From a bacterium (GTDB lineage: Bacteria; UBP14; UBA6098), in assembly GCA_023145965.1 (NCBI GenBank), contig JAGLDC010000031.1:1-36328 (forward strand): a DNA stretch of 36,328 nucleotides, written 5' to 3'. Below are positions 7,023-25,879 of the stretch, piece by piece. Both the position numbers and the translations under genes were made by a program. The notes below the pieces were generated by a model that searched no databases, was not told where the DNA came from, and saw only the letters and a program-made list of their open reading frames with translations. Position 1 is the stretch's first letter, and every line of letters begins with the position of its first letter.

Positions 7023-8441
7023 TTACACCTCAGAATCAAAGTAGATCCCCATAGACTTTCTCAAACGCTTATCTTCGAAAAAAGCATTTGTTTCTCCATC
7101 CCAAACAATCCCCCCAGACTCGAGTATTATAGTCCTTTGAGTGCATTTTTCGGCAAGCTCGAAATCATGTGTAATTATCATTATCGTCTTTCCCTTTGAG
7201 GAAAGCAATTCTACTATATCCCTAAAGCGATGTCTTCCATCATTGTCAAGCGAGGCTGTGGGTTCGTCGAATATTATGAAATCCCTATCCATCGCAATAA
7301 CTCCAGCTATTCCGACCCACCTTTGTTGGCCATCAGATAAATCAAAAGGAGATTTATTATATACCTCTTGCTGAATTCCGACGACCTCAAGTGCCTTCTC
7401 TGCTTTATTCCTAACATTATCCATTCCAAGATTTTTTGGGCCAAACTCCACATCCTCTATCACCGTCTCGGCAAATAACTGCCTTGCAGGGAATTGAAAA
7501 CACATCGAGACATATAACTCAATCTCTGCAGATTTTGCCCCTGAAACCTTGGCCGAACCGAGGTTCGGTTTAAATAGGCCAGCGCAAACCTTTGCAAGAG
7601 TAGTTTTTCCGGAGCCACTGGCCCCGAGAAGGCCTATTCTCGTTCCGCTTTGAATCTTAAGGTCAATTCCATTAATCGCTTTAAAAGAATCATATTTAAA
7701 TTCAATATCATTAAATTGATAGCACTTTTTATTTAATGTATTACTTAAGGTGATAGGCTTTATATAAGCTTTTCCATTTAAGTTACCTTGTTTTATTACG
7801 CCTTTTTCAATAGTAACTATTCTGTCAGAGCGTCGAGCCGAAGTTTCTGACTGGGTTATATAGAGGATGGCGGTTTCGCTATCGCGAAGCTCGCCTATCT
7901 TGCGCCAAAAAAGCCTCTTGCCCTCATAATCGAGAAAAGCATCCGGTTCATCGAGGATCAAAAGACGGGGTTTCAGCGCCACAGTAGAGGCAAGGGCGCA
8001 TCGCTCCAAATTCCCACCGGATAGCTCGTCTATATTCTTCTTTAACGATGACTCCAAACCGAAATCTCGGGCTACGTTCATAATAATATTTTTAATTTCG
8101 ACGGACGGTATGCGTGCATTTTCAGGAGTAAAAGCTAATTCTCTTTCGACAGATGTCGCAATTATTCCTTCCGAGGGATCTTGAAAGAGAAATCCAACTG
8201 TTCCAGGATTGAAATAGAAATGCTCATCGAAAATATTCTGACCATCGAAAAGAACTTCGCCAGAATTCGGGCGAATAATCCCGGCAATTATCATCGCCAG
8301 TGTAGTTTTGCCCGAACCATTAGCCCCATAAAGAGAAACCATCTCGCCGGGTAATATTTTTAGATCGATACCTCTTAAAAGTTGAATCTCATCAGCCAAA
8401 TACGAATACCTAACATCAGATACATCAATAAGATAAGACAT
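7023..8441 (-). CDS. Fused double ECF-type ABC transporter ATPase (EcfA-EcfA')
   Basis: A 472-aa cytoplasmic protein made of two ABC ATPase domains. Domain 1: Walker A GANGSGKT (39-46), Q-loop FLFQDPSEG (Q87), signature LSGGN (140-144), Walker B LLILDEPDA (160-168). Domain 2: Walker A GASGSGKT (273-280), Q-loop FQFPARQLF (Q316), followed by TVIEDVEFGPKNLG, which is characteristic of energy-coupling factor (CbiO/EcfA) ATPases, signature LSDGQ (368-372), Walker B FIIFDEPTA and switch His in IITHD (H424). Domain 1 has ITQSE where the switch histidine is expected, so it may be the weaker catalytic site. ECF ATPases drive uptake of vitamins or metal ions together with an EcfT and a substrate-binding S protein; neither is recognisable in the window. 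The four-helix protein at 8520 and an exported protein at 6203 flank it in the same direction. Confidence 0.88.
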   Translation of the reverse strand: MSYLIDVSDVRYSYLADEIQLLRGIDLKILPGEMVSLYGANGSGKTTLAMIIAGIIRPNSGEVLFDGQNIFDEHFYFNPGTVGFLFQDPSEGIIATSVERELAFTPENARIPSVEIKNIIMNVARDFGLESSLKKNIDELSGGNLERCALASTVALKPRLLILDEPDAFLDYEGKRLFWRKIGELRDSETAILYITQSETSARRSDRIVTIEKGVIKQGNLNGKAYIKPITLSNTLNKKCYQFNDIEFKYDSFKAINGIDLKIQSGTRIGLLGASGSGKTTLAKVCAGLFKPNLGSAKVSGAKSAEIELYVSMCFQFPARQLFAETVIEDVEFGPKNLGMDNVRNKAEKALEVVGIQQEVYNKSPFDLSDGQQRWVGIAGVIAMDRDFIIFDEPTASLDNDGRHRFRDIVELLSSKGKTIMIITHDFELAEKCTQRTIILESGGIVWDGETNAFFEDKRLRKSMGIYFDSEV

Positions 8442-9139: not shown

Positions 9140-9263
9140 GCTTTTCTTTCGAAAAATTGTTAGTCCGTAAGCCTTTATTCAAAAATATCATCTTGGGAAT
9201 TAATATACTATCTTTGTTTATCCATGCTTGACAGCAGGGAAGACTTCAAATATATTGGTTTTT

Positions 9264-10742
9264 ATGGTTTTAAAAAGCTCGATATGCTGTTTTCTGACTA
9301 TAGCCACCGGAATGCTATTTGCAATCGAGGGGCAGAATCCCACTCCGAAATTCATTCCTCCAGATTTTTCTGTGGAGGAAGAGCGTGTGGCTTACCCATC
9401 GGATTTACTCGAATTCTTCAAGATACCATTCATAGATTATCTTAGGTCTGATGCCTCTAAAGACATAATCGAAACTAATTTAGAAATCAATTCCTCAAAA
9501 GGTGCCTTGGGATCGATTATAGTCGCACAGAAGGGTTTTGTTGCGAAAGCTAAGGGGAGTCAAGATTATTACGGCGATGGAGAAACGAAGAAAATGCTAC
9601 GCGTTATCGAAGGACATGGAGGATATGCCGATATCTTAGATGAACGCTTTCCATTCGCACTCAAATCCAGTGGAGCATATTCGTCATTTCGTGGTGAGTA
9701 TGAACTATCTACATATTCTTTCTCAGGTGGTGCAGAAGGCCATATGCCCATAGGCAAAAGCCTTATTTCAATGGATATTTCTGGAACTCGCGAGAGCTGG
9801 GCACAACATTATGGGCATTTTCCTCGGATAGAATCACCGGACATACAAAGAGCGGAGATATCAAATGCCGTTTCTGGGAAGGTCGCATTTAGGAGTATGC
9901 CCGGCGAATACACGGGGTTCGAAATTATCACATCAGGAGTTACATCAACGAGATATAGGCAGAACAAGTGGAATATTAAGCGAACCGTTACATCGGGAGT
10001 AGCCAATCTCGTATATGATTCCAAATCATTAAGGTTATCTGTAGGCGCATCGGCACATAGGACATGGGAAGAAACCATCATCTCCCCTTCAATGGATTTC
10101 GAATTGAACTGGAGACAGCTATCAACCTTCGCCTCAATCGAGGGCTATACTGTGCCAATCGAAAGATATAAAGTCTTCGATACACCCCGTGCAGCTATTC
10201 CTAATAATGCTGATTTCATAACAGTTCCAATTTCTGTGACCGTTGGAGGAAGATTCGAGTTGAAACCGGAGCAAATCCTATCGATGGAAGCGAAATACTC
10301 GAAAATCGAGAATGAACCAATCCTTTGGGAGCCTCTCTCTGAAGCTCCTATGTCTGAGCTGGAACAAACAGGGCACCAAAGTATTAATCTATCTTTATCT
10401 AGCAACTTTGGTTTGTTAAAAAATAAACTAACCATAAACCTTAACCGCGATACAGCGAACGATAGACCTATTCCGATCGAACCAGAAGAAGTATTCTCTG
10501 ACACAGTTTTTATTAACATTCATGATATAACCCTCATTGCCGCAGGTTATCGAAGATATGGTCAACCATATATCGGCAAACCTCAAGAAACAAATATCGG
10601 TTTTGGCATAAAATATTCTTACAAGCTTGTGACATTCGGTTTTATGCTTCAGAATATCCTTGGCGAGCCTATTTTCGATGAACGCGCCCTCGAATTTTCA
10701 GAAGAAACCAAGCTCCTCTTCAGTCTATCTATACAGCTTTAA
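9264..10742 (+). CDS. Outer-membrane beta-barrel protein, similar in style to the barrel of TonB-dependent receptors
   Basis: Starting at the ATG at 9264, the 492-aa product has a signal peptide (MVLKSSICCFLTIATGMLFA); a TTG at 9228 would add 12 residues in front of it, so I prefer the ATG although no strong ribosome-binding site precedes either. The body is a series of amphipathic beta-strands with aromatic ends. The C-terminal region (FGFMLQNILGEPIFDE ... LLFSLSIQL) resembles the last strands of TonB-dependent receptor barrels, but there is no recognisable plug domain or TonB box, so this is only a structural likeness. Its stop overlaps the uvrC start by one base (TAATG). It is divergent from the ECF ATPase cluster and shares a promoter region with it. 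Substrate unknown. Confidence 0.55.
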   Translation: MVLKSSICCFLTIATGMLFAIEGQNPTPKFIPPDFSVEEERVAYPSDLLEFFKIPFIDYLRSDASKDIIETNLEINSSKGALGSIIVAQKGFVAKAKGSQDYYGDGETKKMLRVIEGHGGYADILDERFPFALKSSGAYSSFRGEYELSTYSFSGGAEGHMPIGKSLISMDISGTRESWAQHYGHFPRIESPDIQRAEISNAVSGKVAFRSMPGEYTGFEIITSGVTSTRYRQNKWNIKRTVTSGVANLVYDSKSLRLSVGASAHRTWEETIISPSMDFELNWRQLSTFASIEGYTVPIERYKVFDTPRAAIPNNADFITVPISVTVGGRFELKPEQILSMEAKYSKIENEPILWEPLSEAPMSELEQTGHQSINLSLSSNFGLLKNKLTINLNRDTANDRPIPIEPEEVFSDTVFINIHDITLIAAGYRRYGQPYIGKPQETNIGFGIKYSYKLVTFGFMLQNILGEPIFDERALEFSEETKLLFSLSIQL

Positions 10743-13126
10743 TGGATCTACGCGCTAAAATAAAACGCCTTCCTTTAAAACCAGGGGTTTATCTTTTTAA
10801 AAACTCAAAGGGCGAAATTATTTATATCGGTAAGGCGATCAAGCTCAAAAACCGTGTTTCGAGTTACTTTAGGGGAAAGCATTCAAATCCAAAAACTGCT
10901 AGATTAGTCGCAAAAATCGAGGATCTGGAGTTTATCGTTGTGGATAACGAGGTCGAGGCTCTTGTTCTCGAAGCCAATCTTGTGCGAAAACATAGACCGC
11001 ATTATAATGTTAATCTTAAAGATGACAAGCGCTTTCCATATATTCATGTGACAGAGGAACCCTATCCTCGAATTGAGATTGTCAGAAGAAAAAGCTCTAG
11101 CGGCTTATATTTTGGACCTTATACGGATGCACGAGGTATGCGCCAAACGGTGGGATTAATCCAGAAACATTTTCGCTTGAGATCTTGTAAAAACAATCTA
11201 CCTAAACAAGCACCTATCAGGCCTTGCCTTAATTTCGATATTGGCCGATGCGATGCGCCTTGCCAAGAATATGTTTCTAATGATATATATAGTGAGCGAG
11301 TAGATGAAGTTATCCTTTTTTTGAAGGGGAAAAAGAGGGAACTTGTCAAACGCCTAAAAGAGCGCATGGTAAAGCTTGCCTCTGAGGAAAAATATGAAGA
11401 AGCTGCCGACATTAGAGACCAGATTAAGGCTATCGATTCTATCTGGAGAAAACAGAAGATCGATACGGATCTCGCGGACAGGGACTTACATGCAGTAGCT
11501 ATCGGCCCTCGTAACGGTATAGCCGTTACAATGCAAGTTCGTCAAGGTCGAGTTATCTCGCGCGGAGAATTTTTGCTTTCAGTGAGTGAAGGAACAAAAA
11601 AAAGTGAAGCGATGTCTGGATACTTGAAGCAGTATTATCAAGATAATCCTGATCCACCAAAGGAAATACTAACTTCGGTTCAACCCGACGATTTCAATGA
11701 TATAGCCAAATTCGTGTCACAATGCCGAGGTAATAAAGTTAAAATTTCAGTGCCTTCTCGAGGCCAAAAAAAGGACCTTATCAAACTTGTCGAACACAAC
11801 GCGGAGTTACTTCTTGCCGATCTTCTAGCAAGTAAAAAGAAAATCCAATTGCCATTTGCGATAATTGACCTTCAAAAATACCTTCATTTGAATACACCAC
11901 CACGCACAATCGAAGCGATAGACATCTCACACCTCAGCGGAACTTGCGCTGTGGCTTCTCTTGTGTCGTTCATCGATGGCAAAAAGAATTCCCGAGGCTA
12001 TCGTCGGTTCCGCATTAAAACTGCCGAGGGTGGCGATGATTATGCCTCGATAGCCGAGGTAGTTAATCGAAGATACGCGCGGCTTATCGAAGAAGGCAAA
12101 GCTCTCCCCGACCTTTTATTAATCGATGGCGGGCGTGGCCAGCTAAATGCCGCTAAGAATTCTCTTAATGAACTCGAGATAGCCGATCAATTGGAGTTAG
12201 CGTCTATTGCCAAGCGCCTCGAAGAGGTTTTTCGATCTGAATACAAAAATCCAATAATGTTAGCAAAGGACTCCCCTGCTTTGAGGTTATTAGTAAAAAT
12301 AAGAGACGAAGCTCACAGATTTGCAATCGAATATCAAAGGAAGAGGAGAACAAAAGCTTATCAAGCTCAGGAGCTTATTTCGATTGAAGGGATAGGCGAA
12401 ATTCGACAAAAAAAACTCCTCAAAGAATTCGAATCGCTCGAACAGATTGCCTCTTCAAATCCCGAGGAAATATCGGAAAAAACAAGAATCCCATTAGACC
12501 TCGCCCATAAGGTCGTCGAGTTTTTGAGTTCTTATAAACTTATTTTAGTGTTAATAGCCCTCGGAATATCGATCTTAGGTGGTTGCACTCCTTCTCCGAG
12601 GTATATTGGTTCCACAAAACCTGTTTTAGCACCAAAGAAGATAGAACAGGCTAAAAAAGATGAGGATAAAAGGGTTAAGACCAAGAATGCAAAACATAAA
12701 GAGGAAACACAAAAGGCTATCCAGAAACAAAATACAACTCAGAACATCAAAACACCCTCTACTAGGTTTAATCCGGATGCCATGCTAGGAGCTGTGAATC
12801 TGTATTTGGGCACACCTTATAAATACGGAGGCAATGGCCTAGGCGGCGTGGATTGTTCAGGGTTTACCCATAATGTAATGGATGCAGCTGGTATCGAGAT
12901 ACCGCGCACAAGCTCTTCTCAATACAGACAAGGCAAACCAGTTGTAAAACCCAGCGCGGGCGACCTGGTCTTTTTCCGAATGCGCGGAAAAGGTGTCGAT
13001 CATGTTGGTGTCTTCCTTGGAGGAAATAGGTTTGTGCACGCAAGTTCGTCATCTGGAGTAACAATAGATTCGCTCGATGAGGAATATTACAAGAAACGCT
13101 ATCTCGGAGCACGGCGTTTTTATTAG
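10742..13126 (+). CDS. uvrC: UvrC excinuclease subunit read in frame into an NlpC/P60 lipoprotein
   Basis: Residues 1-594 are a complete UvrC, the dual-incision nuclease of nucleotide excision repair: GIY-YIG domain (GVYLF, IYIGKA; Y28, R38, E77 and N89 as likely catalytic residues), four cysteines C149, C162, C170 and C174 matching the iron-sulfur site described for UvrC, the UVR motif at about 211-240, the RNase H-like nuclease (AIDISH 392-397, LLIDGGRG 459-466, DEAHRF 522-527) and the C-terminal helix-hairpin-helix region (ISIEGIGEIR). With no stop codon the frame runs on into a lipoprotein signal (LILVLIALGISILGGC, lipid Cys at 615), a lysine-rich linker (630-675) and an NlpC/P60 peptidase with C705 (DCSGF), H754 (DHVGVF) and H766 (FVHAS). 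The junction is a T5 run at 12521-12525; one T fewer would stop UvrC with TGA overlapping a TTG start at 12524. This may therefore be two genes. Confidence 0.9.
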   Translation: MDLRAKIKRLPLKPGVYLFKNSKGEIIYIGKAIKLKNRVSSYFRGKHSNPKTARLVAKIEDLEFIVVDNEVEALVLEANLVRKHRPHYNVNLKDDKRFPYIHVTEEPYPRIEIVRRKSSSGLYFGPYTDARGMRQTVGLIQKHFRLRSCKNNLPKQAPIRPCLNFDIGRCDAPCQEYVSNDIYSERVDEVILFLKGKKRELVKRLKERMVKLASEEKYEEAADIRDQIKAIDSIWRKQKIDTDLADRDLHAVAIGPRNGIAVTMQVRQGRVISRGEFLLSVSEGTKKSEAMSGYLKQYYQDNPDPPKEILTSVQPDDFNDIAKFVSQCRGNKVKISVPSRGQKKDLIKLVEHNAELLLADLLASKKKIQLPFAIIDLQKYLHLNTPPRTIEAIDISHLSGTCAVASLVSFIDGKKNSRGYRRFRIKTAEGGDDYASIAEVVNRRYARLIEEGKALPDLLLIDGGRGQLNAAKNSLNELEIADQLELASIAKRLEEVFRSEYKNPIMLAKDSPALRLLVKIRDEAHRFAIEYQRKRRTKAYQAQELISIEGIGEIRQKKLLKEFESLEQIASSNPEEISEKTRIPLDLAHKVVEFLSSYKLILVLIALGISILGGCTPSPRYIGSTKPVLAPKKIEQAKKDEDKRVKTKNAKHKEETQKAIQKQNTTQNIKTPSTRFNPDAMLGAVNLYLGTPYKYGGNGLGGVDCSGFTHNVMDAAGIEIPRTSSSQYRQGKPVVKPSAGDLVFFRMRGKGVDHVGVFLGGNRFVHASSSSGVTIDSLDEEYYKKRYLGARRFY
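12524..13126 (+). CDS. NlpC/P60 cell-wall peptidase lipoprotein (alternative internal start)
   Basis: If translation begins at the in-frame TTG at 12524, the product is a self-contained 200-aa lipoprotein: signal MSSYKLILVLIALGISILGG with lipidated Cys 21, a lysine/glutamate/asparagine-rich linker, and an NlpC/P60 domain with the catalytic triad Cys (DCSGF), His (DHVGVFLGG) and His (FVHAS). Such Spr/NlpC-type enzymes cleave peptidoglycan stem peptides in the periplasm. A weak ribosome-binding site, AAGG at 12509-12512, precedes it. TTG starts seem to be used elsewhere in the window (6210, 30136), which makes this reading plausible. A lipoprotein signal makes no sense in the middle of a cytoplasmic repair protein, so I consider separate translation more likely than a working fusion. 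Confidence 0.6.
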   Translation: MSSYKLILVLIALGISILGGCTPSPRYIGSTKPVLAPKKIEQAKKDEDKRVKTKNAKHKEETQKAIQKQNTTQNIKTPSTRFNPDAMLGAVNLYLGTPYKYGGNGLGGVDCSGFTHNVMDAAGIEIPRTSSSQYRQGKPVVKPSAGDLVFFRMRGKGVDHVGVFLGGNRFVHASSSSGVTIDSLDEEYYKKRYLGARRFY

Positions 13127-13151
13127 TCAAATAATCTCGCAAATAACCCGA

Positions 13152-13186
13152 TTAAAAAAGCCCAACAAACTGCCGGGCTTTTTTAA
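13152..13186. terminator. Bidirectional rho-independent terminator between uvrC/NlpC and the giant gene
   Basis: TTAAAAAAGCCC (13152-13163) and GGGCTTTTTTAA (13175-13186) form a perfect 12-bp inverted repeat with an 11-base loop. It gives a T run on either strand and sits between two convergent genes, 26 bases after one and 15 bases before the end of the other. Confidence 0.9.
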
Positions 13187-13200
13187 TAGTTTAATTATGG

Positions 13201-16200
13201 CTAAGGCAAATAAACCTTGGCTTGAATGGTTAAAATAATCCTCTCATTAGTAAATGTCGTCGAGTTCGTGGGTGCATGGAATTGTAACCACATAGAACGC
13301 TCCTCTGAAGGCGGTATGTTCCATCCACTAGCACCGTAATAATCATCTGAAGCCCAGAATATCGATGACCTTATATAATCATACACTGGATTGAATATCG
13401 GTGGTGGCGTAACAACTTCATTATTGAAGACACCACGAAGAACAAACCTATTCAGCGCTGGGCCGATTCCAGCGGTCCAGGTTGCACCGGCATCCGAAAC
13501 ATAAAGCCCCCAGGTCGAGGCAATATCACCACAATTTTGAACTCTAATCATCTGAGAAGAATCAGTTGTAACTACCTCATTTAGATGGACTATTCCGAAA
13601 TCGATTACTGTAGTGTCAACACATACGGCAAGAATAATATCAACAGGGTCGTAATAGGCCACAAGAGATCTCGAAGCGATAACCGGCCCATGTAAATGTC
13701 CATTGGCTCCACCATCGGAGAAATTATTGAAGTAGAAAACTGAATCATTATCGTCAGTAATATCCATGGGGCTGACTTGCACCCAGATGATAGTATCGTT
13801 GTCAACCCAACGAATCATACCACCACAATCGGTGCAAATCGAATCTCCTGCGATTATCCAACCATAATCCTCATATGGAGTCTTACGAATTATAAGTGTC
13901 CTTTCGACTTTATAATCAGCAAATAGCGTTTCAGGCTCGAGGATTCTAATTTGATGGACAATATCTCCGCTATCCGACCACTCTTCGAAGGTAAATCTAT
14001 CATATCCTGAAGACGAATAATCAACTTCAGATACGGATACATAGATACTATCTCCCTCGTCAAACCAACGCTCAACGGAATATCCCGGCGGGGGCAAATA
14101 AGAGAACCCCATACGACCATAAACATTTTCAAGAGGCCTCTTTTCAAGCCTAATTAAAAATTGACGGTTATAATGAGCAATAAGAGTCATGCTCGAACCG
14201 ATCGGCCCAACCGTGTGAGTGATCGCTCCCCCATCTGACCACCTGTCAAATGTATATCTTGTAGTAAGTGTGGTATCTAGATCGGAAACGGAAATTGTAT
14301 GAGTCGAACCGAGAACCCACCAAAGCAGAAGTTCATCGGCGCCCCAGTAGCGATGACCGTCAATCTCGATATAACCTTCTGTGTGAAGCGGGTTCTTTTT
14401 CACAAAAATTCTCGCTCCTCTGGTATATACAGCTGTGATATCATAGGTTGAATCGACAAGGAAACTAACATGGAACGTATCCGGCAAAGTGGGTCCACCC
14501 TCCCAATGGTCGAATACATATATCATTCTGTCTATCTCTACAACAGAATCGGTGCTAAGATAAGCAGTTTCGCCTTGAATATACCAACCCTCACCAGATT
14601 GGACTGGAATCCCGGTGCCACATTCGCTGTAATCCAGATCGATATGGTAATTATTCACCCATTGCCAATCGATGGAAGAGTTTTCCGTAATATCGAACTC
14701 GAAGTGGGAGCTATCCCCTCCTGAAGGCACCGAATGTGAGCCACGCCATCCAGCACAAAGTCTCATTATTCCATCGCCATCGGAAATAGTATCTTCAATA
14801 AAGGCCGAGATATGGCGATCTATTGAATGATAAGTAACTCCTCTGTGCGGCCATGGCGAGCCATAATCACTCATAACTGTTAAAGTAACGACATCGGCCA
14901 ATTCTTCCCAAAGCCAGGTAACACTGGAGACCATTCCAATATTAGAGCTGAATAATGTATCGTATCCAAATGTAGGCAAGCTTCCAGTGCCATTCCAACC
15001 TATACAAACATAACCTATATAGGGGCTGGATACACTAAAATCGATCAGTGTATCATCGGGAACCCAATGCAGGCCAGTATCAGGATCAGGATAGCCTCTC
15101 CCGCTATCGGAAATTACAGTTAAAGGCCAAAGAAGCTCCCCATTCCATATCCAAGTGAGCACGGAATTTTCCGTAATCGTGAAACTCACAGCATTAGAAT
15201 CACCAGAAGCGGGGACGCTTCCGGTGCCATTCCATCCAGTGCATACCTGCCAACCAAAATCGAAAACAGAGTCCTCTACTGTGGCTCTAAGGAAGGTTCC
15301 CTCAGGCACGATATATGTGCCCGAAGGTATCGGATATCCATAAGGCGAAAATACAAACAGAGTGCAAATCTCTTCTATGGCATATTCCCAAATCCAATCT
15401 ATCGAAGCTGGATCATCCAACTCAAACGAGAAGGCTGTGCCATATCCGCTGGGTGCACTACCGATTCCGGTCCAACCGATGCAATACCAATCGCCTATAG
15501 GACTTGTAATACTGGCATCTATTGTGGTTGAGCTATCATACCATGTAGTTCCAACCGGTGGGATAGGTGTATCGTGCGAACTTGTCACAGTGACCGACAT
15601 CTCCTGTTTAAACAGCCAGTATAGCTCTGTTAAGCCAAAAATATCCCATGTAACATGATTAGTATGCCCTATTGCTGGAATTCCTGTTCCTGTTGCATTC
15701 CAGCCTGTGCATGTCATCCGTCTTCCGGAACCCAAATCTACATAGCCATCCACAATAGCGTTAATAGTTGTTCCGGTGAGATAATTAGTCGTATCCACCG
15801 GAGGATAAGGAGCACCCCAATCGCTATGAACAACAAGACGAGAAATATCGTCCGACCACAACCAATGAAGTGTGCTAGGAGTATCAATTATTGCAATAAA
15901 AGAATCTAGAATGCCATCGGGCACACTCCCCGTCCCTTCGTAACCGATACACCAAAAATCGATATCGGGGCTTGTTACATTGAATGAAACGGATTCTCCC
16001 ACGTTAAACCAATGCTCACCTTCGCCGGGAACAGGGCTTCCATGGCTACCCTCGGAGGTTATCGTCACCTTAACCTGCTTTTGCCATATCCAATTTAAAT
16101 CTGAGAAGCTATAGATATTAAAGGAGACAAAGCCGCTATCACCCAATGCTGGACAGTCGCCGGTTCCTGTCCACCCCTGAAGAACATAGCGAATATCTGT

Positions 16201-19200
16201 CGCGAATGGATAGAACACTGTGTCGGATATTGTTGAACATGTAGCAATCGAACCCATCCTATACCAATAAGTTCCTGGGGTCGGGCTTACAGAATCGGTA
16301 ACAGATGTTATTGTCAATGAGGTAACGGCTGTTAACTCATCCCAATCCCACCTTAAATTAGACGGTTCGTCCATTACAAAATAGGCATAGGTCGAAGGGC
16401 TGTAATGCGGCACACTACCAGTCCCATGATACCCAAGACAATACCAAGTGCTATCTGGAGAGGTAACCCAAGCTATAATTGTAGTATCGCGAACGTACCA
16501 ATATTCTCCGGCAGGTGGCGTTGGGCTGTCATGTGAACCCGGGTTCTCGATTGTCAGTTTATATTCGGTTCTCCAATTCCATGTTATAGTCGTGTTTTCG
16601 GTGATAGTAAAGTCTATCGAGCCACCTGTTCCGCTCGGGGGCGCACTACCTGTCGCAGTCCATCCCAGGCGAATAGCGCGGTGTCCGAGCGCGACTGTAA
16701 CAGTTTCTCCGGGACAAGTTGCATTTATGAACGATCCCGGATCGTAGAATGTTGTATCTGCCGGTATTACACCGGGATATTCGCTTTCGACAATCAACAT
16801 CAACTGCGAATCCCATTGCCACTCGACAGTTCCGGAATCATTTACTGTCCAAGTAACTATTGTATCTGTTCCCGACACGGGAAGCGAACCTGTTCCGATC
16901 CAACCTGTGCAGTAACTGTGGGTTATAATATCGGGACTTGTAACATGCGCTGTGGCCGTGCTATCCTCATAATACCAATAAGAACCGGGCGTAGGTGTAG
17001 CAGATCCGTGTCCACCATCATCGATGAATACCTTGAATTGCCTGAGCCAAACTGCAGTCTCAGTGATGGGTGAATTCATCGCGCAATAACCAGGATTATC
17101 CGTGCCGGTATAAGATATAGCACCGGCACCCACCCAATGGTCGAATACCCACCTCTCTCGAGGAGTTTCATCGGCCTCTGTCGAGCTGCTGAAACTCGGT
17201 GTCGAAGCGGCATAGAACCAACCGGAACCGGTAATATCACCATGACCGCCGTTCTCCACGGTTAAATAATATTGTATATCGAAATTAGCTGTATATGTTG
17301 AATCTGTGATCGGAGCGATAGTTCTTGTTCTCTCTGAAACTCCATCTGCCCAAGCATTAAATAAGTAACGAGTGCCAACTGCTCCATATTGTAGGCTATC
17401 TGTCGAAATAGTGTGCGAGCTTCCTGTTAACCATACGACAGTGTGAGGTGAAAGGTAAGTTATTCCGTCAACATCGACAGAATCGGCTGTGCCATCGGTT
17501 TGAATGATGATCGTTACTTCGGCAAGCTCATATGTGGCCACAGCTGTGTGCGGGGAATCCATCAGTATGGTTGTCGATGGGTTCGTTAGGTCACCGAAGG
17601 AACCTCCGCTCCAATCGACAAAATCATATCGGCGGCCGAGGCCATCGTGAATAGGATCATCTGTTGTTATCGCCGGGTTGCTACCAGCAGAATACCAACC
17701 TGCTCCAGTTTGAATAGGAACAGCCGGGCCACAATCAGCATAAGCTAGTTCAAGCCGATATTCTGTTCTCCATGTTGCTATAGCAGTCTTGTGGTTATCC
17801 ATCGTAATTGGGCTAGAAGCACTCGAATTGGTTCCTGTGGCATCCCCAGACCATCCATCAAATATATATCTGGTATCTCCAGCAACAATAATAGAATCAT
17901 TCACGCATCCCGTTGAAGTAGCACCATGATTATACCATCCTTCACTCATAGCACATGGGGAAGAATGTGCCCCCTCGTCTATATCGAACCACCATTGTTC
18001 CTGATAATTACCGGTAATTGTCGCCGCCGAACTCACGCTCCCCGACGGAGGTGCCGGACAGAACCACCTATGGTCGATGCCGCTCCCGCTCGAAGTCCAA
18101 GAGAAATTATAAGAGTGTGAAGTCCCTGTCTCAAAATAAACGGAATAATCGTGTCCATCCCAAATCTGATGTGGTGTTCCATCCACAACAACAGTTGCAT
18201 AATTCGTTGAAGATAAATCTGTTCCCAAGGTTGTCGTATTAGCCCTGAAAGTGACAGCATAATCGCTTTTCCAGTTAGCACGCGCAGTCCTTGCGGCAGT
18301 CATTGTGACCATGCCAGAATGGCTCGATGAGCTTCCTGAAGCATCTAAATCCCAGAAATCGAAGGTATATCGGGTCGTGCCTACGGTCATCACCGAATCG
18401 TTAACACAACCATAGGTCGTAGTGCCATGGTCATACCAACCTTCGAGTCCCGTGCAAGGAGTGGAATGGCCGTTTTCGTCTATGTCGAACCACCATTGCT
18501 CTTTATAATATCCCCGTATCGTATCGCCGGAAGAAACGGTGCCGGAAGGAGGACTGGAGCTGAACCATCTATGGGTGCTTCCGGAGCCGGAGCTCGTGGG
18601 CGAATAGCTGTAAAGGTGCGAAGTTCCACCGGAAACCCAAACCGAATAGTTATGCCCGTCCCAGATACCGTGACCGCCGCCGTCGAGCGTAACCGTCGCG
18701 TAATTCGAGCTTGAAAGCGCGGAACCGAGAGTCGTATGCGCTTCGAATACAAGTAAATATTCGGAATTAAAATTCGCTGTATAGGTCGCGGTTCCGGTAT
18801 ATGGCGACACGATATTATGCGTCATTGCGCCGCCATCGGACCATGAAGTCCAACTATATCGGTTCATCCCGCTGGTCTGCGGCGATGTCGTTCCTATAGA
18901 ATGCGATGATCCGGGTAACCAACAGAATTGCTGGGGAGAAGTATATGTAACTCCGTCCACGACGATTTGAAGTCCGGCGGGGTTTGTAGTAACGGTCGTT
19001 ACCGGAATTGTCATAATGTTATACGATCCGGTGTATCCGCTATAACCGCTCGAATAACCGGTTCCGCCAGCACCTCCGCTTCTGTTGACAGATGGAGATA
19101 GCGTATGACTACCACTAAGGCATGAGCTGTAAATAACTTTGATTCTGCCGCCGCCACCACCAGCACCACCCTTTGCGTAATCGTGGCAGGAACCATACGC

Positions 19201-21849
19201 AGGACTCGGAATACCGGCAACACCACCAGAACCACCTATTGCTTGAAGATAGCCTGATAGATTCATTACTCCCGCTGCCATAAGCGAAATACCACCGCCC
19301 GAACCACCACCGCCACCGCCCGCTGCGCCGCCGGATGCGTCGAAAACCTCGTAGGCATCGAAACAGCAACCGTTATAGCCATCACAGCTACAATTAAAGT
19401 CATTACTTGTGGATTCACCTCCACCATTTCCACCGGCACTACCACTAGAACCGTTAGCATATATTCTTCCAGTTGAAGAAAGGGTTAAATTGCCTGAAGC
19501 AATAAGATTCACCTCTCCCCCACCGTCGCCACCACCGCTACCGTTGGTTCCGGAAGCATAACCTCCACCTCCACCGCCAGCGCCACCACCACCAGAGCCC
19601 CATGTTACATCATAACCTGAAGCACTTCCATATGTTGAACCGCGCGAACCACCGCTTCCATATGAGCCTCCAGAAGCACCAGAAAAGCTTGCACCGTAAG
19701 CACCATAACCACCATAGCCACCGGAGCCACCATAAGCGCCGCCGCCGCCGCCACCGGCACCGCCGCCGCCGCCGTTATGACCATCATCACCGCCTATACA
19801 AAGGAAACCACAGTCCTGTCGTTCACAACCACCAGTTCCACCGCTGTAGCCACCCGAACCTCCACCACTACCTGTTCCCGAAGAACCTCCTGTTCCACCA
19901 TATCCACCATGACATGAACTCTCGCTACCGTAGGCATAACCGCCACCACTGCCACCACCACCACCATTTTCTCCCGAGCTTATAGCATCGATGGTTCCAT
20001 AGATGTTAATTGTATTGGCTTCGACGGTTAAGAACTTACAAATGCCAGCAACGGTGAGCGTAACACCAGAATTGACAGTAAATGTGCCGACATTAGTATG
20101 AGTGCCGCCCGCAGTAGTATTCGATGAAATTGTCCAGTTAGCACCACCATGGTTTGTTGTGCCGCAACTAACCGCAGTATAGTTCACAACAAGATAAGGT
20201 CTATACGATGAATAATAGAAACCATACCAATAAGTGTAATAACTCGAAGAGCTATCCCAATCTCTAATACCGGTTCCAAACCAACCGTCCCCAAGACGAG
20301 ATTGAAGAACCGAAATCCCAGAAGAATTCAGATAATAGCTTTTCCAACCGGTAGGTTCGGAGGATGACCAATTCTGAGTGAGCATAACTGTGCCGCTTGT
20401 GCAGGAAGTTCTATATGCGGTGCAATTAAAAGTCCTTTGGCTCATCGCGCGTAGCTCCCACCATGGGTAATTCCGCGCGTAACAGTAGGCATGCCAGTTG
20501 ACCGAGTTAATGGTGTAACCATCAGGAATAGCCCCAATATTAAAGAACATCCAACCTAAATTTGTGTTAGCGCCGGTTGCCCAAACATGATCACCGCAAT
20601 AACTCTCTCCGCAATAGCAATTAGTGCCTTCAGAGAAACCGGAAGATTCCGAGGTCGGTGGCGAAGTGAAAATATAACAAGTAATCGTCGGGTCTATGAT
20701 CACCGGGTAAATTCTATCCGGCGATGCAAGCCAGTCTAGAGGAACCAAGGTTGTTAAGCTATAATGATTTCCGCTTTTAATTAACCTGAAATCACCAAAA
20801 ATCTCTTCCCTGCCGATTGCTTCAGAAACGCCTTTGTAGTCTTCTATAGTATCGATTCTATCATTAGCTTCGCGTATATTAGGAAGCGGAATCTCATATA
20901 TGGTTTTGCCTTCAGAATTAATAATAGTCAGCTTCTTTCCGGCCATAATCGATGGATCTCGATTAAGGAATATTTCGCAATCCTCGGGAATATGCAGGTC
21001 TTGATCGATAGCAAGGTATTTAGCGTTCTCAGGTAGAGATGCACATATCTCCGGTATTTCATCGAGAATTAGATCATGTTCGATCCCGATTTCACCGAGC
21101 CGAACGACCTCCCTGCCAAAACCGTCCGAGGCTGCAAATACGATTTCTCCGTCGTATAACCTTCCATGACGGTTCGGGGCATCGAGTTCCCTGAGCGATA
21201 TATTCTCCGGGGTTTCGATCCGCATGTTTTTAAAATAGCTAAGCGAAATCGCGGCATCTTCTTTAACTATCGAATAGGAATCCGTGCTCTGCTTTGGAAA
21301 TCGAGTCTGGAATACGTTTTCGCGAGAAACGATAACATCTCCGAGATCGCTGAATTCCGTGCCGATATCCTGCCAAGCACCAAATTCATCGGAATAATGA
21401 ACAGGACCGGAGCTAATAACAGCCTGATAATCCTCATCGCTAATTCTGAAGGTTTTGGTGAAGGCATTTCTCTGCTCGATAACCTCGTCGTATGGGCTAA
21501 AATTGGCGAATATCCCCTCGGTTTGCCAATTTTTGCCGCTTGGGTCGGAAAGATTACCCAATACGAGTTTTTGCAAGGTTGTTGTTCCCGCATTCCCATT
21601 GACAACCAGAACCTGACTTTCCTTCTGAGCGGGCGAAACCTGACTCATTGGAACCATAATCGCTGTTCCATTCATGTCTGGAGTCTTGGATAATGAAGTT
21701 TTGCTATCACAACCACAATCCGCAACCTTTTCCGTTGTTTGCATGGAATTAGAATTTGCAGGTGATATTGGCTGTTCTCCAACCAGAACACTCAATGATG
21801 CAAGAAGAATTATTAAAACGGTATTCAAGAAACTTTTACAATAGTCCAT
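13201..21849 (-). CDS. Giant secreted repeat protein with glycine-rich block and InlB-B-like repeats
   Basis: A 2882-aa protein from the ATG at 21849, with AGGTGG five bases upstream; a GTG at 21858 lies inside that ribosome-binding site. In order: signal peptide (to about residue 25); an N-terminal region to about 385; a cysteine- and aromatic-rich region (about 390-560) that looks like DNRLRE/carbohydrate-binding-type modules of secreted proteins; a glycine-rich block (about 622-932); then about 23 repeats of roughly 80 residues (about 950-2735) resembling the divergent InlB B-repeat (YWY..., C-x-GW-x-GTGS-x-P, then W-x-W or A-x-Y); and a C-terminal beta-rich domain of about 145 residues ending AKVYLP. 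Probably a surface or released fibre used for attachment. No catalytic motif seen. It has its own promoter, and a terminator separates it from the von Willebrand protein gene upstream. Confidence 0.85.
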   Translation of the reverse strand: MDYCKSFLNTVLIILLASLSVLVGEQPISPANSNSMQTTEKVADCGCDSKTSLSKTPDMNGTAIMVPMSQVSPAQKESQVLVVNGNAGTTTLQKLVLGNLSDPSGKNWQTEGIFANFSPYDEVIEQRNAFTKTFRISDEDYQAVISSGPVHYSDEFGAWQDIGTEFSDLGDVIVSRENVFQTRFPKQSTDSYSIVKEDAAISLSYFKNMRIETPENISLRELDAPNRHGRLYDGEIVFAASDGFGREVVRLGEIGIEHDLILDEIPEICASLPENAKYLAIDQDLHIPEDCEIFLNRDPSIMAGKKLTIINSEGKTIYEIPLPNIREANDRIDTIEDYKGVSEAIGREEIFGDFRLIKSGNHYSLTTLVPLDWLASPDRIYPVIIDPTITCYIFTSPPTSESSGFSEGTNCYCGESYCGDHVWATGANTNLGWMFFNIGAIPDGYTINSVNWHAYCYARNYPWWELRAMSQRTFNCTAYRTSCTSGTVMLTQNWSSSEPTGWKSYYLNSSGISVLQSRLGDGWFGTGIRDWDSSSSYYTYWYGFYYSSYRPYLVVNYTAVSCGTTNHGGANWTISSNTTAGGTHTNVGTFTVNSGVTLTVAGICKFLTVEANTINIYGTIDAISSGENGGGGGSGGGYAYGSESSCHGGYGGTGGSSGTGSGGGSGGYSGGTGGCERQDCGFLCIGGDDGHNGGGGGAGGGGGGAYGGSGGYGGYGAYGASFSGASGGSYGSGGSRGSTYGSASGYDVTWGSGGGGAGGGGGGYASGTNGSGGGDGGGEVNLIASGNLTLSSTGRIYANGSSGSAGGNGGGESTSNDFNCSCDGYNGCCFDAYEVFDASGGAAGGGGGGSGGGISLMAAGVMNLSGYLQAIGGSGGVAGIPSPAYGSCHDYAKGGAGGGGGRIKVIYSSCLSGSHTLSPSVNRSGGAGGTGYSSGYSGYTGSYNIMTIPVTTVTTNPAGLQIVVDGVTYTSPQQFCWLPGSSHSIGTTSPQTSGMNRYSWTSWSDGGAMTHNIVSPYTGTATYTANFNSEYLLVFEAHTTLGSALSSSNYATVTLDGGGHGIWDGHNYSVWVSGGTSHLYSYSPTSSGSGSTHRWFSSSPPSGTVSSGDTIRGYYKEQWWFDIDENGHSTPCTGLEGWYDHGTTTYGCVNDSVMTVGTTRYTFDFWDLDASGSSSSHSGMVTMTAARTARANWKSDYAVTFRANTTTLGTDLSSTNYATVVVDGTPHQIWDGHDYSVYFETGTSHSYNFSWTSSGSGIDHRWFCPAPPSGSVSSAATITGNYQEQWWFDIDEGAHSSPCAMSEGWYNHGATSTGCVNDSIIVAGDTRYIFDGWSGDATGTNSSASSPITMDNHKTAIATWRTEYRLELAYADCGPAVPIQTGAGWYSAGSNPAITTDDPIHDGLGRRYDFVDWSGGSFGDLTNPSTTILMDSPHTAVATYELAEVTIIIQTDGTADSVDVDGITYLSPHTVVWLTGSSHTISTDSLQYGAVGTRYLFNAWADGVSERTRTIAPITDSTYTANFDIQYYLTVENGGHGDITGSGWFYAASTPSFSSSTEADETPRERWVFDHWVGAGAISYTGTDNPGYCAMNSPITETAVWLRQFKVFIDDGGHGSATPTPGSYWYYEDSTATAHVTSPDIITHSYCTGWIGTGSLPVSGTDTIVTWTVNDSGTVEWQWDSQLMLIVESEYPGVIPADTTFYDPGSFINATCPGETVTVALGHRAIRLGWTATGSAPPSGTGGSIDFTITENTTITWNWRTEYKLTIENPGSHDSPTPPAGEYWYVRDTTIIAWVTSPDSTWYCLGYHGTGSVPHYSPSTYAYFVMDEPSNLRWDWDELTAVTSLTITSVTDSVSPTPGTYWYRMGSIATCSTISDTVFYPFATDIRYVLQGWTGTGDCPALGDSGFVSFNIYSFSDLNWIWQKQVKVTITSEGSHGSPVPGEGEHWFNVGESVSFNVTSPDIDFWCIGYEGTGSVPDGILDSFIAIIDTPSTLHWLWSDDISRLVVHSDWGAPYPPVDTTNYLTGTTINAIVDGYVDLGSGRRMTCTGWNATGTGIPAIGHTNHVTWDIFGLTELYWLFKQEMSVTVTSSHDTPIPPVGTTWYDSSTTIDASITSPIGDWYCIGWTGIGSAPSGYGTAFSFELDDPASIDWIWEYAIEEICTLFVFSPYGYPIPSGTYIVPEGTFLRATVEDSVFDFGWQVCTGWNGTGSVPASGDSNAVSFTITENSVLTWIWNGELLWPLTVISDSGRGYPDPDTGLHWVPDDTLIDFSVSSPYIGYVCIGWNGTGSLPTFGYDTLFSSNIGMVSSVTWLWEELADVVTLTVMSDYGSPWPHRGVTYHSIDRHISAFIEDTISDGDGIMRLCAGWRGSHSVPSGGDSSHFEFDITENSSIDWQWVNNYHIDLDYSECGTGIPVQSGEGWYIQGETAYLSTDSVVEIDRMIYVFDHWEGGPTLPDTFHVSFLVDSTYDITAVYTRGARIFVKKNPLHTEGYIEIDGHRYWGADELLLWWVLGSTHTISVSDLDTTLTTRYTFDRWSDGGAITHTVGPIGSSMTLIAHYNRQFLIRLEKRPLENVYGRMGFSYLPPPGYSVERWFDEGDSIYVSVSEVDYSSSGYDRFTFEEWSDSGDIVHQIRILEPETLFADYKVERTLIIRKTPYEDYGWIIAGDSICTDCGGMIRWVDNDTIIWVQVSPMDITDDNDSVFYFNNFSDGGANGHLHGPVIASRSLVAYYDPVDIILAVCVDTTVIDFGIVHLNEVVTTDSSQMIRVQNCGDIASTWGLYVSDAGATWTAGIGPALNRFVLRGVFNNEVVTPPPIFNPVYDYIRSSIFWASDDYYGASGWNIPPSEERSMWLQFHAPTNSTTFTNERIILTIQAKVYLP
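13640..19005 (-). repeat. About 23 InlB-B-like protein repeats within the giant gene
   Basis: Units of about 240 bases encode beta-rich repeats. Ten consecutive units between roughly 14.7 and 17.0 kb share a core of the form CTGWIGTGSLP, CIGWTGIGSAP or CTGWNGTGSVP; units ending in ENS/ENT...W-x-W alternate with units carrying TSPD...YC. Units nearer both ends have the commoner form ending WSDGG...A-x-Y. Boundaries are approximate. Confidence 0.75.
17765..18755 (-). repeat. Tandem duplication of a two-repeat module, about 165 aa per copy
   Basis: Two adjacent copies of about 495 bases (about 18260-18755 and 17765-18255) encode clearly related proteins, with shared landmarks YATV, IWDGHxYSV, GSG..HRWF, PPSG.VSS, EQWWFDIDE, CVNDS and TRYxFDxW. 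The DNA has diverged noticeably, and the first copy is richer in GC, so the duplication is not recent. Confidence 0.75.
19054..19986 (-). repeat. Glycine-rich coding block of the giant gene
   Basis: About 310 residues dominated by GGG, GGS, GGY and GGA runs, broken by short ordered pieces (VNLIASGNLTLSSTGRIYA, ISLMAAGVMNLSGYLQAI, GRIKVIYSS) that look like right-handed beta-helix or autotransporter strands. On the other strand this composition creates spurious His/Arg-rich reading frames. Confidence 0.85.
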
Positions 21850-21903
21850 AAGCCCCACCTAAATAATGGGTTAATATTTCATCGAGACTAAATTATTCAT
21901 ACC

Positions 21904-22003: not shown

Positions 22004-25000
22004 CTATCTCATAAGAAGAACTGTGCCGCTGCAAACAACCTCGCCTTCATTTTCTATTATGAACAAATAAAGACCGGGCGAGGTTAGCTCGCCAGTATCG
22101 GTTCTTCCATCCCATATTGTGGCACCGTTTTCTGAAACCCAAATCGGTTGATTACGTAGGTCGAAAATACGAATAATCCCCTGCCTTAAAGCCATGTATG
22201 GATATGTAAACTGAATTACATCGTTAATACCGTCGCCGTTCGCGGTAAATGGATTTGGATAAAAATTGCATGTGGTCACAGAGGGGAAAAAACACCAACG
22301 GTAAGGTTCCATGTAGTTCTGATCTCCATAATCTGGCATAATGTCCGCTGCAGAAACTGTGATGCAGATACTGTCGTTGTTAGGCCAAATTATTTCCTCA
22401 GCTTCGGGACGGAATCGGAATAACTCACCTTCGGCATCATATGTGATTCCGGGTGTTCCCCATGTGAAGGTATCGACATCGTTAAGTATCATTTCGATAG
22501 TCGTAGGATCGACCTCTCGAAGGTTATCCCACAGCTGAATTGTTATATCGTGGTCAAGATCGAGAACAACACCATCAGGCGGAGGATCAGGGGAAGCTGT
22601 AAGCGGTGGTGTTAGGTCAATAAAAAACCTCCAATATACTGGTATTGCAGCATCACCAGCCATATCGAGAGCCTGTTTAAGGCTGCAAGCTACCCATGTC
22701 CCATCGTCGAAATATTCCCCAATAGGCGGAACAAAGGTCATAGTATCATCCGCGAATGTAAGATTCCCGTCTCCAACTACATGATCTACGCCATTAACAC
22801 TGAAGATAATGCTCGTTTCATCTACACCTTGAACCGAATCTATTATTGTCATGACAATGGTCTGATCCTCATTAGTCGAAATCTCTCCGGGCTGCGGATA
22901 AATAATTTGAGGAATAGGACCTCGGATGATGTGAATCGGATAATCATCTGACCAGCAGCATGCACGGTCGTTTTCAAAACCACCATCGAGGTCATTGTCG
23001 CAGGCGAAAACCCTAAAAATAAAATCATTGGATTCGAAAAGGCCATCTATAGGAATATCGATTTTGAATGTATCCCCCACCGAAACCGACATCGAAACCG
23101 AACCTGAAATATCATCATCCAGTTCGCCATCAATATCCCAAACAAGCAAAACACCCTGTGAATCTGAAGGATCAACTGGGTCGTAAACACCCGATAAGTC
23201 ATCGACGATTAGCATGTAAATATTAAAATCTTCGCCCTCGACAACCGCTTCGGGACCAATAAACTCGAATTCTGGACAAAGCGTATCATCGTCAACCACA
23301 GCAAAACACCATTCAACAGGGCTTAGAGCATTCGTGCCAAAATCGATATCCGTGTAATCTGGAACGTCCATACCGCGAATAACAGCAACACAGATAGTGT
23401 CAAAGAAGCTATTGATTATCGGTGGTTCAGTAAGAGTGGGATCGAGATAATAATCAATTCCATCCCAGGTCACACCGGGAGAGTGAATATCGAACATCCA
23501 AATATCCGGCGGGAACTCGCTTCTTCCGGCGATATTGGAATAAGTGAACAGAACAGATTCTTCATTTAATCCAGAGAAGCTATCTTTAATTCGGAATCCC
23601 ACCGGTTCGTATGGATCTTCAGTATGTGAATCCGGTGCAGGAAGAAGATTCTCTACGAACGGCGCTTCCATATCCGCGCCCCAAACCCATCTCAAAGGCC
23701 CTACCCATGGGAGATTACCCTGACTATCCATAATACGTGCAAGAACAACATCGACCATCTGGTTATTGCTCCACGCCACCAATGGACTAAAGGCTAAAAT
23801 CGGCGCATTATAGGTCAATTCGGGAGAAGAAATGGAGTACATAGTCCCCTCGACAACAAGCTGAATTGAGGCTTCATCAACCGAATCCTCCATTTCTATT
23901 TCCGACAGGTTAAAAATTATCTTTTGGAAAGGCACATTCGATATCGGGAAAGTATGCCCGGATATCGTATCGGGGTGCGGTTCTATTATTGCCGCTGACG
24001 GACTACAAGGAGCAAAATAATCGAATTCATCATCGTCTTCGAGATCGAATTCGTCCATCGAGGCCTCGATTTCGATATGACGCATATCGCAAGATGCCAC
24101 TGGGTGGCTCGTGCTCCAGCGCACATAATAACCACCGCTGATGTTCTCGACAATTTGAGTTAGAATTGTGTCGAAATCCGTGCTTGCTTCATAGAATGCC
24201 CCCCCGGATTCAGCTGTGATGCTTCCGGGACCATAATATACACCAGAATAGGGTCGCGAGGCATCGGTATAGGATGTATCGAGAATAACAAAAGATATGG
24301 CATCGTATGACATAATCGCACTGTAAAGATCCGCGTAAACTTCATCCGAATATGTAGTCCCGTCGCTGAGATAGTGATAGGGTGCGTCGGAAACCATACA
24401 GATAACTATCCTGGCTCCCGGACGAAAATGCATCATCTCCAGAGCATCGATGATTGCATCGAAAGCCACCTCGGGACCATCGCCGCCACCACCAGAGGCA
24501 AGTGCCGCCATCCAAGATTGAAACTCAGATGCACTTCCAGTAAGATCATATCCATATGGAAATGCCACATGATCGGCGAAAGTAACTAATCCTAAACGAT
24601 AGTCTATACCAGAAACAGACAACGATTCAGCAAAATCGATACATCTATCAGCTACCTCGTCGATAAGCCCCCACATGGAACCAGTAGTATCGATAACCCA
24701 TATAATATCGGCAGCACCACCACTACCAAGACTATTAACTATAAGCGGATATTGCTCATCTCCGTTCATCCAAACCTTGAAATTATTCTCGTGGAGACCC
24801 TCGATCATTCGGTCGTCTTCGTCTTCGACAGAGCAATAAGCGCTAATAAATGGGAAATTCGCCGGATTGACCGACTCAATCGCGATAGAAAGATCAGCCG
24901 GGGGTGGGATTTCTATGCTGAATACCCAGCAGAACTCGCTCCAATTCGGACCGCATTCGCCACCTACAATATCTGCTCCACCAACACAAATATCAACAGA

Positions 25001-25879
25001 TTCATGAAGGTCAAAGGTGATGCCTGCATAGCTGGCATACCAAAAGAGTGTATCATTCCTGAATCTAACAGGAGCATCACCCCAAGAAAAGGTATCCCCA
25101 TCGACAATATAATACAGAGTCGTAGTATCGTAATCGGTGAGAGCATCCTCAACACGAACATAAACTGTCGGTGAAAAATCTCTGGTTGTTCCATCCGGTG
25201 AAGGAAGAAAATCTGAATACTCAGGGCCGGTGGTATCCATCAGTATAGTGCAATCAAACGGTGGTTCTAGAATATGGTTACCCACGGTATCTGCAAGATC
25301 TGTGAGTGCTATTCTTGTAACTCCCTCAGGAAAACCTCCTGTAGGTGTCCAAAAAATAAGAGAATCTCCTTCGAGAGTGAGTTCGGTAGAAGAAATCGTA
25401 TATGTAGTCGAACCGACGATAAGCTCGATGCTCGATGGATCAATGCCACTGATATCATCCACCTCGATAACGATTGGTCGATCATTACAAGCTGTCGTTT
25501 CTCGACAGGCAGGCCAAATGAGCGATGCTATCGGTGGGTCGCTTTCGGAAACCACAAAAAGGCCATCGATAAGTGTATCGGAATAACCACCGGGATTTGT
25601 AACGATAACATCGTGATAACCCAAAGGAGTAACACCTGTTATGTTAACAGAAGCGCGCGCATAGACTGCGCTGAGGCGAAGCGTCCCGGTTACAATAATA
25701 CCGCTGCCAAAATCGCTGGTGATTCCAGTGGCGAAACTCGAACCATAAAGATTAATATCGATAGTCGAACCTACACCAACGGTATCTGGGTCTATCGATG
25801 TAATCATCGGCGTTTGCGCATACAGCAAACCCGCTAAAATAAATGGTATAATGGTCAAAATCTTTAACTTAGCCATCAT
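22004..25879 (-). CDS. Secreted von Willebrand factor A protein with IPT domain and CHU_C-type sorting tail
   Basis: A 1291-aa exported protein; the ATG at 25879 follows GGAGGG. Domains: signal peptide (1-21, ending LLYAQ); an IPT/TIG Ig-like domain (about 24-110, with ITSIDPDTVGVGSTIDINLYG); Ig-like beta domains (115-325); a von Willebrand A domain (about 388-585) with a metal-ion site D397-TTG-S401, T433 in LVTFAD and D467; more Ig-like domains (600-1190, repeated PAPDSHTED- or PPPDGV-type starts); and an end domain of about 85 residues with NPFTANGDGINDVIQF, IRIFDLRNQPIW and GLYLFIIENEG. That end matches the gliding-motility/type B sorting-domain style of T9SS cargo. Likely a surface adhesin secreted across the outer membrane. 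No T9SS core gene other than the possible PorV-like start at 1-216 is visible. Confidence 0.85.
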   Translation of the reverse strand: MMAKLKILTIIPFILAGLLYAQTPMITSIDPDTVGVGSTIDINLYGSSFATGITSDFGSGIIVTGTLRLSAVYARASVNITGVTPLGYHDVIVTNPGGYSDTLIDGLFVVSESDPPIASLIWPACRETTACNDRPIVIEVDDISGIDPSSIELIVGSTTYTISSTELTLEGDSLIFWTPTGGFPEGVTRIALTDLADTVGNHILEPPFDCTILMDTTGPEYSDFLPSPDGTTRDFSPTVYVRVEDALTDYDTTTLYYIVDGDTFSWGDAPVRFRNDTLFWYASYAGITFDLHESVDICVGGADIVGGECGPNWSEFCWVFSIEIPPPADLSIAIESVNPANFPFISAYCSVEDEDDRMIEGLHENNFKVWMNGDEQYPLIVNSLGSGGAADIIWVIDTTGSMWGLIDEVADRCIDFAESLSVSGIDYRLGLVTFADHVAFPYGYDLTGSASEFQSWMAALASGGGGDGPEVAFDAIIDALEMMHFRPGARIVICMVSDAPYHYLSDGTTYSDEVYADLYSAIMSYDAISFVILDTSYTDASRPYSGVYYGPGSITAESGGAFYEASTDFDTILTQIVENISGGYYVRWSTSHPVASCDMRHIEIEASMDEFDLEDDDEFDYFAPCSPSAAIIEPHPDTISGHTFPISNVPFQKIIFNLSEIEMEDSVDEASIQLVVEGTMYSISSPELTYNAPILAFSPLVAWSNNQMVDVVLARIMDSQGNLPWVGPLRWVWGADMEAPFVENLLPAPDSHTEDPYEPVGFRIKDSFSGLNEESVLFTYSNIAGRSEFPPDIWMFDIHSPGVTWDGIDYYLDPTLTEPPIINSFFDTICVAVIRGMDVPDYTDIDFGTNALSPVEWCFAVVDDDTLCPEFEFIGPEAVVEGEDFNIYMLIVDDLSGVYDPVDPSDSQGVLLVWDIDGELDDDISGSVSMSVSVGDTFKIDIPIDGLFESNDFIFRVFACDNDLDGGFENDRACCWSDDYPIHIIRGPIPQIIYPQPGEISTNEDQTIVMTIIDSVQGVDETSIIFSVNGVDHVVGDGNLTFADDTMTFVPPIGEYFDDGTWVACSLKQALDMAGDAAIPVYWRFFIDLTPPLTASPDPPPDGVVLDLDHDITIQLWDNLREVDPTTIEMILNDVDTFTWGTPGITYDAEGELFRFRPEAEEIIWPNNDSICITVSAADIMPDYGDQNYMEPYRWCFFPSVTTCNFYPNPFTANGDGINDVIQFTYPYMALRQGIIRIFDLRNQPIWVSENGATIWDGRTDTGELTSPGLYLFIIENEGEVVCSGTVLLMR

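Follow-up and report, generated by a model that had tools for sequence, protein, structure and literature searches.

A conserved in-frame fusion of uvrC with an NlpC/P60 lipoprotein gene, and a model for its processing at an internal signal

The gene at positions 10742–13126 of the forward strand of the window (the whole 36,328-nucleotide stretch of DNA that was analysed) is almost certainly a genuine fusion, joining uvrC to a lipoprotein gene of the mepS/nlpC type, rather than the result of a sequencing slip. Its translation is a single 794-aa open reading frame ending at a TAG codon (13124–13126), with no stop codon between the UvrC and lipoprotein parts, and the arrangement is kept in seven other genomes. 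The model that best fits the sequence data, and that we regard as fairly probable, is a single precursor in which an internal type II signal would export the C-terminal peptidase, making the product a two-compartment polyprotein.

The UvrC part (residues 1–595; 10742–12526, forward strand, as for all parts of the gene given below) contains GIY-YIG, UVR, RNase H-like nuclease and helix-hairpin-helix domains. Pfam placed GIY-YIG at residues 14–89, UVR at 200–232, UvrC_RNaseH at 246–359, UvrC_RNaseH_dom at 378–529 and HHH_5 at 543–595, with NLPC_P60 following at 690–792. The NCBIfam profile TIGR00194 (uvrC) gave a full-length match covering all UvrC domains, at 575 bits against a cut-off of 285.45. 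The nuclease residues Y17, Y28, R38, E77, N89, D394, D462 and H525 were invariant in the fused genomes with sequence there. The peptidase domain (residues 690–792; 12809–13117) matched PF00877 at 100 bits against a threshold of 23, and its C705, H754 and H766 were invariant in all eight fused genomes. With the MepS equivalog NF008096 of NCBIfam it scored 94.7 bits, below the curated cut-off of 186; by sequence it is therefore named MepS-like only and is not classed as MepS. Apart from this sub-cut-off score, profile and residue tests place both halves among the ordinary members of their families. The proposal of an earlier note on this DNA, that UvrC is read in frame into an NlpC/P60 lipoprotein, was thus borne out by the uninterrupted frame and by the agreement of Pfam, TIGR00194 and PF00877.

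Between the two halves lies a junction (residues 596–614; 12527–12583) consisting of S-S-Y-K, a hydrophobic stretch and L-G-G, which hydropathy (a peak of 2.7 over 15 residues) and a predicted helix mark as a candidate internal type II signal. It is followed by the lipobox cysteine C615 (12584–12586), invariant in the eight genomes, which opens a lipoprotein N-terminus, C-T-P-S-P-R-Y-I-G, and a disordered linker of low pLDDT (residues 615–689 together; 12584–12808). A K or R directly before the hydrophobic stretch, the stretch itself and the G-C were found in every fused genome; these are the features of a bacterial lipoprotein signal, placed internally rather than N-terminally. An AlphaFold2 model built with eight sequences (mean pLDDT 71, a confidence at which the relative placement of domains is not trustworthy) showed the last UvrC helix at 585–594, a second helix at 597–611, the disordered linker and an NlpC fold. 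In Foldseek searches, the best matches of the UvrC part were the solved UvrC C-terminal halves of T. maritima, B. stearothermophilus and D. radiodurans, while the peptidase part matched T. thermophilus NlpC/P60, LytE and MepS in the PDB.

A whole-protein search was made of 60 relatives and of 17 genomes of the window's phylum, the window's own genome being G000. The in-frame fusion was recovered in seven other genomes belonging to three families, at 42–73% identity to the window protein: G001 and G002, of the same genus as G000; G003 and G004, of the same family (f1); G005 and G008, of family f2; and G006, of family f3. Six of the seven carried it at full length in one open frame. In G003 contig ends break UvrC, and the second piece spans the junction through to the end of NlpC. 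Recurrence in seven relatives at this level of identity places the continuous frame far beyond chance.

The TTTTT that the earlier note had placed at the junction is present at 12521–12525, within the codons of Phe594 (TTT) and Leu595 (TTG), and its arithmetic was correct: with one T fewer, TTT would be followed by TGA, UvrC would end after residue 594, and a TTG would overlap the TGA. It is this neat overlap that favours a fault of sequencing or assembly, or T5 slippage, as the cause that joins two normally separate genes. The relatives speak against such a cause. T5 is kept in G002 and G003 (TTTTTA) and is absent from the other five, which read TTTCTC (G001 and G004), TTCCTT (G008), TTCCTG (G005) and CACCTG (G006). 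Were the frame shifted by +1 right after the corresponding codon, a stop would follow immediately in G000 (TGA) and G002 (TAA) and in none of the others. A conserved slippery run coupled with a conserved alternative stop was looked for and not found among the eight fused genomes, only three of which have T5. Sequencing error was excluded because independent assemblies from three families show the same in-frame join, and slippage was rejected as a conserved device because the immediate +1 stop is limited to two genomes. As a general explanation this reading is refuted, and we hold it to be highly improbable, though slippage could occur at a low level in the window species alone. By sequence, T5 arises simply from the codons used for Phe-Leu. 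Of the three options that had been left standing (a real fusion, a sequencing error or a pair joined by slippage), only the first survived, with all seven relatives in frame; the comparison of junctions suggested at that time, in which in-frame fusions lacking the run would argue for a genuine one, came out in its favour.

Each fused genome has a single PF00877 match and a single PF08459 gene, in both cases the fused one (in G003 as two contig-end halves). A search with these two profiles found no further copy of UvrC or NlpC/P60 outside the fusion in any fused genome. Both functions must therefore come from the fusion ORF, and both halves look functional, since the active-site residues, the C-H-H triad and the lipobox Cys do not vary in any fused genome with sequence at these sites. 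The G000 genome encodes UvrA and UvrB at other loci. As a separate observation on UvrA, an unrelated outgroup genome contains a 1653-aa open frame (G023:C3:124646-129541) that UvrA matches twice in tandem. Of the lipoprotein-processing enzymes, Lgt was detected in every one of the eight fused genomes, and LspA in seven of them. LspA (PF01252) was not found in the draft assembly of G000 (96% complete, 139 contigs), an absence probably due to assembly incompleteness. Nearly all relatives carry both enzymes; in G010 Lgt (PF01790) had no match, probably through an assembly gap.

The upstream neighbour of the fusion is a 504-aa ORF (9228–10742, forward strand) whose TAA overlaps the uvrC ATG as TAATG. 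Its N-terminus resembles a signal, neither Pfam nor NCBIfam matched it, and f1 and f2 relatives have a comparable ORF in front of the fusion; the ORF is a probable operon partner. Downstream, beginning 25 bases past the fusion stop codon, an inverted repeat at 13151–13187 can form a hairpin (−20.1 kcal/mol, z −2.8) with a T-rich 3′ side, usable from both strands, which is probably the end of the transcription unit. The TAATG overlap upstream and the strong hairpin downstream make the fusion the probable last gene of that unit. Inspection by eye of the two f2 loci (L157, 13690–16115; L159, 4108–6533) suggested that genes further upstream resemble yidC and its usual small neighbours, placing the fusion near a membrane-insertase cluster there. 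Elsewhere in the window, the reverse strand encodes a very large (2885-aa) secreted ORF that is repeat- and Gly-rich (13201–21858), a 1291-aa ORF whose C-terminal domain, of FYPNPFTANGDGINDV type, resembles sorting domains (22004–25879), and a 472-aa ORF (7023–8441) that, by eye, has two ABC ATPase domains per chain, as in fused EcfA-type transporters.

The two genes are separate in a further family, f4, in which uvrC ends at the HhH domain and nlpC lipoprotein genes lie at other loci. A tree of RpoB and UvrA placed f4 beside f1 (99.2/99), with f2 and f3 outside, and the UvrC tree agreed on the grouping of f4 and f1 (86/94). In the NlpC tree, which has long branches, the fused sequences were grouped weakly (60/92), and this tree does not decide the history. 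One ancestral fusion followed by one split in f4 requires as many events as two fusions. A single old fusion is favoured by matches at the joint, namely E-F-L-S-P-Y-K/R in f1 and f2, the spacing, the lipobox and P-R-Y. On this sequence evidence the fusion was probably ancestral and was split once in f4. It was not found in 44 genomes of other lineages outside the phylum, nor in one other phylum among 74 genomes with a UvrC match.

The junction appears to be constrained as protein. Counted from HRFA, the lipobox Cys lies at a distance of 93 in each of the five f1 genomes, of 94 in the two f2 genomes and of 91 in f3. Within f1, codons 591–600 had a pN/pS of 0.26, compared with 0.27 in neighbouring UvrC and 0.27 in NlpC; with synonymous sites close to saturated, the ratios serve as description only. 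Looser values were obtained for the hydrophobic stretch (0.62) and the disordered linker (0.76), and G-C-T-P-S-P-R-Y underwent no amino-acid change within f1 (0.00). Protein-level constraint on codons 591–600 is thus, by this measure, equal to that on UvrC. The lipobox G-C and the downstream P619-R620-Y621 are invariant in all eight fused genomes and are mostly common to the stand-alone lipoproteins of f4. The lipobox is weak in G008 (G-N-G-C), and the hydrophobic stretch of G005 contains a Glu.

If an in-frame start near the end of uvrC yielded most of the lipoprotein, the gene would have two products, and the full-length protein would be a minor one or a UvrC with a disposable tail. In G000 a TTG at 12524, 20 codons before the Cys, is well placed for this and would produce a textbook signal, MSSYKLILVLIALGISILGG; some separate lipoprotein could be made from it. 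G006 also has a TTG at −20, and in G002, G003, G005 and G008 starts that take in the charged residue occur farther from the Cys (−23 to −33). The position of the start differs, however, in nearly every genome, and no shared internal start codon or ribosome site was found near the junction across the eight. The in-frame ATG, GTG or TTG codons of G001 and G004 (within −36 to −10) lie only 11–13 codons before the Cys and bring no positive charge, the conserved K of these genomes being upstream of them. In G001, G002, G004, G005 and G008, a signal begun at any start codon lying 20 codons or fewer before the Cys would lack the K/R, and two fused genomes have no usable internal start. The SD energies of the candidates were weak (−4.9 to +3.4 kcal/mol); the best starts of ordinary genes had medians of −4.2 to −8.1 kcal/mol, taken from sampled stretches as best-of-several values. 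An internal start was rejected as a general route, neither start nor SD being shared, and so was an internal promoter, since no promoter-like site was seen within 12200–13300. Internal initiation also leaves unexplained the continued lack of a stop codon between the halves in eight genomes. We therefore consider this arrangement unlikely. A start including the charged n-region would be expected to be conserved if the lipoprotein were translated separately; as it is not, a single precursor is the simplest reading.

A single product might also remain uncleaved. It would then be a bitopic protein, for which the topologies of ToxR, CadC and RodZ serve as a model, with the hydrophobic stretch holding a cytosolic UvrC at the inner membrane and the peptidase in the periplasm. 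The K/R before the hydrophobic helix and the near-fixed spacing from UvrC to this helix are in keeping with such a protein. A mere anchor, however, would not need the invariant lipobox Gly-Cys, or the P-R-Y common to stand-alone lipoproteins, and the distribution of Lgt and LspA among the fused genomes also counts against it. We judge an uncleaved protein to be quite unlikely.

The single, processed precursor is thus preferred. Translation would give one protein of ∼90 kDa, with its UvrC part remaining cytosolic. The hydrophobic stretch, flanked by K/R, would act as an internal type II signal oriented N-in, C-out, with the K/R supplying its n-region, and the NlpC/P60 domain would be exported across the membrane. 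Lgt would then lipidate C615 and LspA would cut before it, releasing a lipoprotein endopeptidase of ∼20 kDa. The hydrophobic stretch would remain on UvrC as a C-terminal tail embedded in the inner membrane, with UvrC either tail-anchored or freed by later trimming. The whole would be a polyprotein of two compartments that matures at its internal signal peptide. That G-C and P-R-Y never vary, and for the most part recur in the stand-alone lipoproteins, speaks for continued lipidation and cleavage at C615. For the cleavage itself and for the fate of the UvrC tail our confidence is moderate, and cleavage may not be universal among the fused genomes, given the poor lipobox of G008 and the Glu within the hydrophobic stretch of G005.

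UvrC is ordinarily a soluble enzyme. It is conceivable, and we propose it only tentatively, that in this phylum UvrC is a repair nuclease that stays bound to the membrane permanently. Its synthesis in one polyprotein with the cell-wall endopeptidase would then fix the output of repair enzyme and wall enzyme at 1:1, and DNA incision would take place at or near the inner membrane. In the phylum's fused genomes the only UvrC detected runs into a lipoprotein signal, which makes them a natural test of whether tethering to the membrane is tolerated, or put to use, in nucleotide excision repair. How a single protein can serve both faces of the membrane is a question that the fusion poses. Lin et al. 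(1997), as cited in PMC5007444, reported that repair proteins are recruited to the inner membranes of E. coli, and no such recruitment of UvrA was observed in living cells (PMC5007444); the fusion gene offers an independent, testable case for repair proteins at this site. If processed as proposed, it would be an unusual bacterial polyprotein, in which the lipoprotein pathway splits a cytosolic from an envelope product. It is also a caution for annotation pipelines, by which such a gene would be trimmed or split.

Searches of the literature for a UvrC–NlpC fusion, a membrane-anchored UvrC or bacterial internal-signal polyproteins returned nothing relevant; the papers searched contained no example of UvrC combined with NlpC, or of a lipoprotein signal used internally after a cytosolic repair nuclease. 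Compared with the ordinary UvrC of UvrABC nucleotide excision repair, the fusion has the same domains in the same order and the same catalytic residues. The helix-hairpin-helix is the last domain of ordinary UvrC, that of f4 included, whereas the UvrC of the fusion continues into the signal and peptidase. Domains of UvrC are joined or used elsewhere too, in DEDD exonuclease plus GIY-YIG proteins (PRK07883) and in Cho, which match the UvrC part weakly; unlike the fusion, these are cytosolic nucleases with no exported partner. The peptidase half shares its Cys-His-His residues, lipoprotein N-terminus and fold with MepS/Spr and other NlpC/P60 murein endopeptidases, and differs from them in having no N-terminal start of its own, its signal lying inside a larger ORF. 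FbcH of Bradyrhizobium japonicum is a polyprotein of cytochrome b and c1 that is cut at an internal signal peptide. As proposed for the fusion, one ORF gives two proteins, the second of which is exported by way of an internal signal. The products of FbcH are two subunits of one membrane complex, whereas the halves of the fusion would belong to different compartments and unrelated pathways, and would be separated by LspA.
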